Below are positions 52,934 through 53,311 of a DNA stretch of 64,000 nucleotides, piece by piece. The stretch comes from Nitrospinota bacterium (GTDB taxonomy: Bacteria; Nitrospinota_A; UBA7883; JACRGQ01). Where the stretch lies: NCBI GenBank assembly GCA_016212275.1, contig JACRGR010000032.1:1-64000 (forward strand), written 5' to 3'. A model generated the notes under the pieces. The model had not been told where the DNA came from, made no database searches, and saw only the letters and a program-made list of their open reading frames with translations. The translations under genes were made by a program, and so were the position numbers. Positions within the stretch are counted from its first letter, which is position 1. Each line of letters begins with the position of its first letter.

Positions 52934-52951
52934 TGATACGAAAACGTATCA
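52934..52951. promoter_or_regulatory. Palindrome upstream of the sigma-54 promoter (possible activator site)
   Basis: TGATACG-AAAA-CGTATCA is a perfect 7-base inverted repeat, 155 bases upstream of the -24/-12 promoter at 53106. That is a usual distance for a sigma-54 activator working by DNA looping. The surrounding region (52857-53100) is very AT-rich and contains no gene. Confidence 0.5.
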
Positions 52952-53105
52952 CTTTTTTCAGTTATATATAATCATTTGTTTTCATTGATATTTATTTAAT
53001 ATAAATCATTAAGTGCGGCAAAAAGGTTTCATTTAAATATAGAGTTATGGAAGTGCAAAAATAGAAAATCTATACTCCACTAAATAAATCAATCAGTTGA
53101 TATTT

Positions 53106-53121
53106 TGGCACGCCGCTTGCT
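53106..53121 (+). promoter_or_regulatory. Consensus sigma-54 promoter
   Basis: TGGCAC-GCCGC-TTGCT matches the -24/-12 consensus at every invariant position (GG at 53107-53108, GC at 53119-53120, ten bases between). The expected transcript start is near 53132. No open frame with a start codon follows before a strong terminator. Confidence 0.88.
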
Positions 53122-53131
53122 AAATAGATAA

Positions 53132-53230
53132 GTGGAACAACGCTTCTCGCCAGAGAGGCTAGTTTCGTTAGATCACCCTCTAACCTCCCCTTAGAAAAGG
53201 GAATCATCGCCCGATGATTCCCTTTTTATT
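53132..53230 (+). ncRNA. Candidate sigma-54-dependent small RNA
   Basis: About 98 nucleotides between a consensus sigma-54 promoter and an intrinsic terminator, with no ATG or coding frame. Three stems: GCTTCTC-GCCA-GAGAGGC (53142-53159, one G-U), GTTAGA-TCACCC-TCTAAC (53167-53184) and the terminator stem. Two C-rich stretches stay single-stranded: the TCACCC loop and CTCCCCTTAGAAAA at 53185-53198. Both complement Shine-Dalgarno-like sequences, so pairing to mRNA starts is plausible. Organisation resembles Vibrio Qrr RNAs (sigma-54-driven, about 100 nt), but I see no sequence similarity. No known Rfam family came to mind. Confidence 0.7.
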
Positions 53231-53233
53231 TTT
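53199..53233 (+). terminator. Intrinsic terminator of the candidate sRNA
   Basis: GGGAATCATC, loop GCCC, GATGATTCCC: a perfect 10-base-pair stem directly followed by TTTTTATTTTT. On the minus strand the A-run is not placed well for the opposite gene, so it serves the plus transcript. Confidence 0.92.
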
Positions 53234-53311
53234 CCGCCATATTATATCGCATTGAAACCGCCATGCGTAAAACCATATCGGAAAGCGGAAAAGAAAGAAG
53301 GCGGGAATTAG

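Follow-up and report, generated by a model that had tools for sequence, protein, structure and literature searches.

The Vibrio Qrr RNAs are small RNAs (sRNAs) of about 100 nt that are transcribed from a sigma-54 promoter under an activator, end at a terminator, use Hfq and carry a conserved seed of their own. GlmY and CrcZ are sigma-54-dependent sRNAs as well and act by protein binding, not through C-rich seeds. Pxr of Myxococcus xanthus is a 108-nt RNA with an apparent sigma-54 promoter, an upstream enhancer site and a predicted triple stem-loop; no Hfq was detected in its hosts, so Pxr is likely Hfq-independent (PMC5568312). Its targets are given as unknown (PMC11928866). In Sinorhizobium, alpha-r14/NfeR1 folds into three hairpins, presents an ultraconserved anti-Shine-Dalgarno motif in unpaired regions and was reported to be Hfq-independent (PMC10746234). 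The Bacillus sRNAs RoxS, FsrA and CsfG bind target mRNAs through C-rich regions, Hfq has no global role in the group, and RosA is a G-rich sponge of the RoxS/FsrA group (PMC8216469).

We analysed a 64,000-nucleotide stretch of a Nitrospinota assembly (the window) together with the other genomes of one uncultured Nitrospinota family, 11 in all, comprising this assembly (G000) and ten others. In our judgement there is a probability of roughly 0.6 that the window encodes a trans-acting, Hfq-independent sRNA of ~98 nt, controlled by sigma-54 and an activator, whose C-rich patches would pair with Shine-Dalgarno (SD) regions. The RNA gene, its promoter, the paired upstream sites, the accessible conserved patches and the non-detection of Hfq come from comparative sequence. 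Pxr, alpha-r14/NfeR1 and RoxS/FsrA were likened to this RNA by description, not by homology. Pxr is the closest by control, having sigma-54, three hairpins and a host group with no Hfq detected, as here; the Pxr gene immediately follows nla19, which encodes its sigma-54 response regulator, whereas no activator homologue was found among the flanking proteins within 9 kb of the sRNA in the 11 genomes. By seed, alpha-r14/NfeR1 and the RoxS/FsrA group come closest. An exposed anti-SD-like motif, with high unpaired probability in 11 genomes, is common to alpha-r14 and the present RNA. However, alpha-r14 has CCUCCUCCC in each of its three hairpins and NfeR1, which silences ntrBC, is controlled by NtrC and LsrB, whereas here UCACCC and CCUCCCC are found together with a sigma-54 promoter. 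RoxS, FsrA and CsfG likewise differ from this sigma-54-linked RNA in sequence and control, and no Rfam match connects it to GlmY or CrcZ. Across the whole window no Rfam family, Qrr included, reached its gathering threshold, in agreement with a preliminary description of the locus that had called the sequence unrelated to Qrr; relaxed thresholds gave nothing credible, the L20_leader score of 24 bits being far under the cut-off of 58.7. Membership in Qrr was rejected on these grounds, on the absence of Qrr among the weak matches and on the failure to detect Hfq in 11 genomes.

The predicted sRNA gene and its sigma-54 promoter

Comparative evidence strongly supports a real and new sRNA family, lineage-restricted and of a familiar kind, and strongly favours a sigma-54 promoter in front of it. 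The predicted transcription unit comprises the following features, the limits of the sRNA being derived from the positions of promoter and terminator.

53106..53121, + strand: sigma-54 -24/-12 promoter TGGCACGCCGCTTGCT, full consensus
53132..53231, + strand: sRNA gene, with the start predicted at 53131-53132, 12 nt past the -12 element, and the end within the U tract at 53222-53231
53134..53166, + strand: 5' hairpin, variable in sequence and kept in structure, with both-sided changes in 7 of 9 consensus pairs
53194..53227, + strand: intrinsic terminator hairpin, with a T-rich tract to 53231 and both-sided changes in 8 of 15 pairs

The promoter has the form TGGCACG-N4-TTGCT, and each of the 11 genomes has GG[CT]A-N6-8-TTGC at the equivalent position, the weakest copy being that of G008. 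Two occurrences of the full consensus TGGCACGNNNNTTGCW were found in the entire 2.19 Mb assembly, which encodes RpoN (E = 4e-61) and 17 full-length sigma-54 activators. The other occurrence, G000:C68:10418-10433 on the minus strand (L022), lies near the gene of a sigma-54 activator at C68:11004-11507 and fronts a short ORF resembling a small membrane protein.

Related DNA is present in single copy in each of the ten other family genomes. The covariance model made with the 11 family sequences returned one strong match per genome (E 7e-25 to 4e-12), that in the window lying at 53132-53235 (E = 8e-25), and no strong match among 12 genomes of the class that belong to other families. Weak extra matches (L044-L048) looked like ordinary terminators or C-rich repeats and were set aside. 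A class-wide pattern search for a remote -24/-12 element with CTCCCC gave chance-level matches only, and its spacing limit missed the known loci. In a second collection, exact matches to the RNA's conserved core (described below) occurred in metagenome-assembled genomes (MAGs) that carry the labels Nitrospinota, Nitrospinales, Nitrospirae or simply bacterium; judging by their isolate names, several come from groundwater. The sole core match outside the family set, in a Deltaproteobacteria MAG (L053), has neither a sigma-54 site nor matching hairpins and looks unrelated.

The RNA at 53130-53232 gave a folding energy of -40.9 kcal/mol, whereas shuffled sequences averaged -19.9 (z = -6.9), and none of 200 shuffles folded as well. 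In order, the fold has the 5' hairpin, a stem of six pairs closing the UCACCC loop, the unpaired CCUCCCCUU stretch and the long hairpin of the terminator, whose predicted 15-bp stem is followed by TTTTTATTTTT; G008 and G009 have only a short U tract. In the alignment, 34 cells changed on both sides of a pair compared with 13.9 in shuffles, with such changes in 15 pairs, and 91% of cells are paired in the consensus structure, a share that does not exceed 58% once the partner is slid. It is the outer hairpins that covary across the 11 genomes; the middle hairpin is invariant, and covariation is therefore uninformative about it. The preliminary description had proposed a stand-alone sRNA with a full-consensus promoter at 53106-53121, three stem-loops and a terminator, with stems expected to be kept in relatives, and in each of these points the comparison bears it out. 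Its terminator stands as well, though with 15 bp in place of the 10 bp given for the stem, and its statement that no start codon follows the promoter was nearly right: in two genomes a 20-codon frame begins with a GTG at 53132, but most relatives lack that start codon.

Paired activator-like sites and gene neighbours

Two candidate activator sites precede the promoter.

52934..52951, + strand: distal activator-like site TGATACGAAAACGTATCA, found with a leave-one-genus-out matrix, 173 bp before the -24 GG
53014..53031, + strand: proximal activator-like site TGCGGCAAAAAGGTTTCA, best leave-one-out match of the entire window (18.1 bits), ~93 bp upstream of -24

The palindrome GATACGAAAACGTATC at 52935-52950, 155 bp upstream, had been put forward as an activator site; it now appears as one of a conserved pair of predicted sites that passed a test in which the site matrix was trained without the genus under test. 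The proximal site is located at -84 to -106 in 11 of 11 genomes. The distal site is located at -171 to -174 in six (G000, G002, G003, G004, G006 and G007) and, more weakly, at -160 in G001, and with the same leave-one-genus-out matrix is not clear in G005, G008, G009 and G010. The two are spaced by ~79-80 bp in G000 and by 76-79 bp in other genomes, and both are among the three best matrix matches across the window. Allowing up to 3 mismatches, the distal consensus TGCTACGAAAACGTTGCA finds this locus alone in its own assembly and few matches elsewhere in the family. Autoregulation of an activator through the same site was considered and rejected, as no matches lie near activator genes; a scan of the 17 activator loci gave no convincing copy (best score 11.6).

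The gene neighbourhood is not fixed. rlmN is upstream of the sRNA in G000, G004 and G009, associated genes are common to G005, G008 and G010, and the remaining genera have different neighbours; this change between genera marks the sRNA as its own transcription unit. Downstream in G000, and convergent with the sRNA, are c-di-GMP genes for an HD-GYP protein with DUF3391 and for a PilZ protein, from which a link to c-di-GMP or motility had been drawn. No HD-GYP/PilZ homologues were found in the flanks of the other ten family genomes, which confines that link to one genome and leaves it unsupported.

The C-rich core and its proposed mode of action

The most conserved part of the sRNA is a C-rich segment containing two candidate seeds.

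53168..53195, + strand: near-invariant 28-nt C-rich core UUAGAUCACCCUCUAACCUCCCCUUAGA, from the alignment of 11 genomes
53173..53178, + strand: UCACCC loop, candidate seed 1, with ACC unpaired in 11 of 11 genomes
53184..53192, + strand: single-stranded CCUCCCCUU, candidate seed 2, anti-SD-like, with CUCCCC largely unpaired in 11 of 11 genomes

Exceptions to the core are confined to G003, where it begins AAGAUAACCC, and G008, with one change near the core end. Partition-function folding leaves ACC within the loop, and also most of CCUCCCC, unpaired in all 11 genomes, with single positions falling to ~0.5 in G005 (0.51) and G008. The final UU of the CCUCCCCUU stretch is partly paired in several genomes, and the alternative fold of G003 pairs the last C of the UCACCC loop. 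The patches are complementary to the SD-like sequences GGGUGA and AAGGGGAGG. Both the exposure of the patches and their SD complementarity had been read from the single sequence; the former recurs in nearly all of the 11 relatives, and the patches are nearly invariant and accessible across the set.

The central UCUAA of the core has one UUAGA before it and another after it and can thus pair upstream, leaving UCACCC in the loop, or downstream, leaving CCUCCCC in the loop. The UUAGA-UCUAA-UUAGA arrangement at 53168-53195 of the window permits two mutually exclusive hairpins, each showing a different C-rich loop. In partition-function folding the upstream pairing dominated in 10 of 11 genomes and the downstream pairing in G003; in G006 and G001 downstream pairing reached 15-19%. 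We also observed that the core at 53171-53192 and the 16S rRNA 3' end of the same assembly, GGCTGGATCACCTCCTT, have GATCACC and CTCC..CTT in common.

Hfq (PF17209) was undetected in 11 of 11 family genomes by a search whose controls were positive in E. coli, B. subtilis and others; with the control working, the sRNA probably acts without Hfq. A search among family genes with GGGGAGGT ribosome-binding sites yielded no target conserved across genera. The only gene common to the matches, in a tally that leaves out one gene fetched twice, is an aminotransferase-like ORF of G002 and G007, in which the motif is apparently inside the coding sequence. A search with an 18-nt complement gave no convincing mRNA target either. 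GGGGAGGT before ATG is common in family genomes, and specificity must therefore come from elsewhere.

We propose that a sigma-54 activator, probably a response regulator, would bind the two sites ~79 bp apart, 93 and 173 bp upstream of -24, and that the bound activator would drive transcription of the sRNA by RpoN polymerase. The exposed UCACCC loop and CCUCCCCUU stretch would pair with G-rich SD regions, and this pairing would keep a set of mRNAs from being translated, with no need for Hfq. Being exposed, SD-complementary and the most conserved, the patches fit a base-pairing sRNA that acts at ribosome-binding sites. The evidence for this mode of action is indirect: since target searches with a few patterns found no conserved target, we infer repression of mRNAs as the main outcome, together with the pairing at ribosome-binding sites and the identity of the activator.

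A second hairpin element and competing readings

The complement search led to a second hairpin element of ~70 bp, conserved in four family genomes and more weakly in a fifth.

G000:C27:8662-8728 (L155/L170): second element
G004:C352 (L156/L168): second element
G007:C96 (L169): second element
G002:C8 (L171): second element
G008:C21 (L172): second element, weaker

One strand of this element is complementary to the sRNA core over 15/16 nt, while the other carries ACCCACUAACCUCCCC, a near-copy of the core motif (15/16); the C-rich strand contains the core-like ACCCACTAACCTCCCC, and the outer stem is formed by GGCCGCCTTG...CAAGGCGGCC. Rfam gave no match for it. In three genomes an ORF near the element resembles, by our reading, gmhA-type isomerases. 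Its complementarity on one strand and core-like motif on the other raise the alternative that the C-rich sRNA is balanced by, or has its targets in common with, this element (L168-L172), which would be a sponge if its G-rich strand is transcribed and a sister sRNA if the C-rich one is. In favour, the element is kept in 5 of 11 family genomes and was found in no other family, but the same search misses it in 6 family genomes that carry the sRNA. The C-rich strand is favoured by a TAnAAT-like box ~60 nt away and by one good T run (G008), which argues against a sponge; as a lead only, the element would be a second C-rich RNA. We give this alternative a slim chance. An unlikely elaboration is that two conserved non-coding RNAs, one under sigma-54 and an activator and the other with a promoter of housekeeping type, make up a small circuit in this lineage without detectable Hfq, either having an anti-SD motif and target set in common under two inputs or one sponging the other, with the alternative hairpins of the core switching the C-rich loop on display.

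The near-invariance of the core even in its stem arms could instead reflect a sigma-54-driven RNA that titrates a protein or the ribosome, like CsrB, CrcZ or 6S RNA or as a mimic of the 16S 3' end, and does not pair with mRNA. GATCACC, common to the core and GGCTGGATCACCTCCTT, would agree with mimicry, but a 7-nt match to the 16S tail is also reached by 4% of shuffled cores (p about 0.04), so the likeness is weak, and any SD-pairing RNA would look like an anti-SD sequence. With the repeated GGA or AAnAAnAA motifs of CsrB or CrcZ missing from the sequence as well, we regard titration as unlikely. A repeat, a riboswitch, a leader of a downstream gene, or a chance promoter next to an rlmN terminator is very improbable: the sRNA is indeed just downstream of rlmN in G000, G004 and G009, and there is the weak, sub-threshold L20_leader score, but the locus is single-copy, has no fixed downstream gene and changes neighbours between genera, while promoter and core are kept together, so that the comparative data already contradict these readings. 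That the locus encodes a short ORF that is translated, or a leader peptide (...SLDHPLTSP*), and no regulatory RNA, is scarcely credible. The 20-codon GTG frame ends at a conserved UAG in G000 and G002; the in-frame start is missing in most relatives, so that the peptide is not conserved, an upstream in-frame stop occurs in G007, the stop is lost in G008, and the 5' part keeps pairing, not codons.

A base-pairing, sigma-54-controlled sRNA is thus the reading we prefer. Rfam has no model of this family, and our search of the literature on Nitrospinota and small RNAs found no described sRNA for the phylum. The family would join the known sigma-54-dependent sRNAs from a group in which no Hfq was detected, and it invites the question of where C-rich anti-SD RNAs get their specificity when that chaperone is missing. 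With the covariance model and the double activator site, new genomes can readily be screened for the family, and a clear test is posed: which of the 17 activators switches the sRNA on, and which mRNAs respond.
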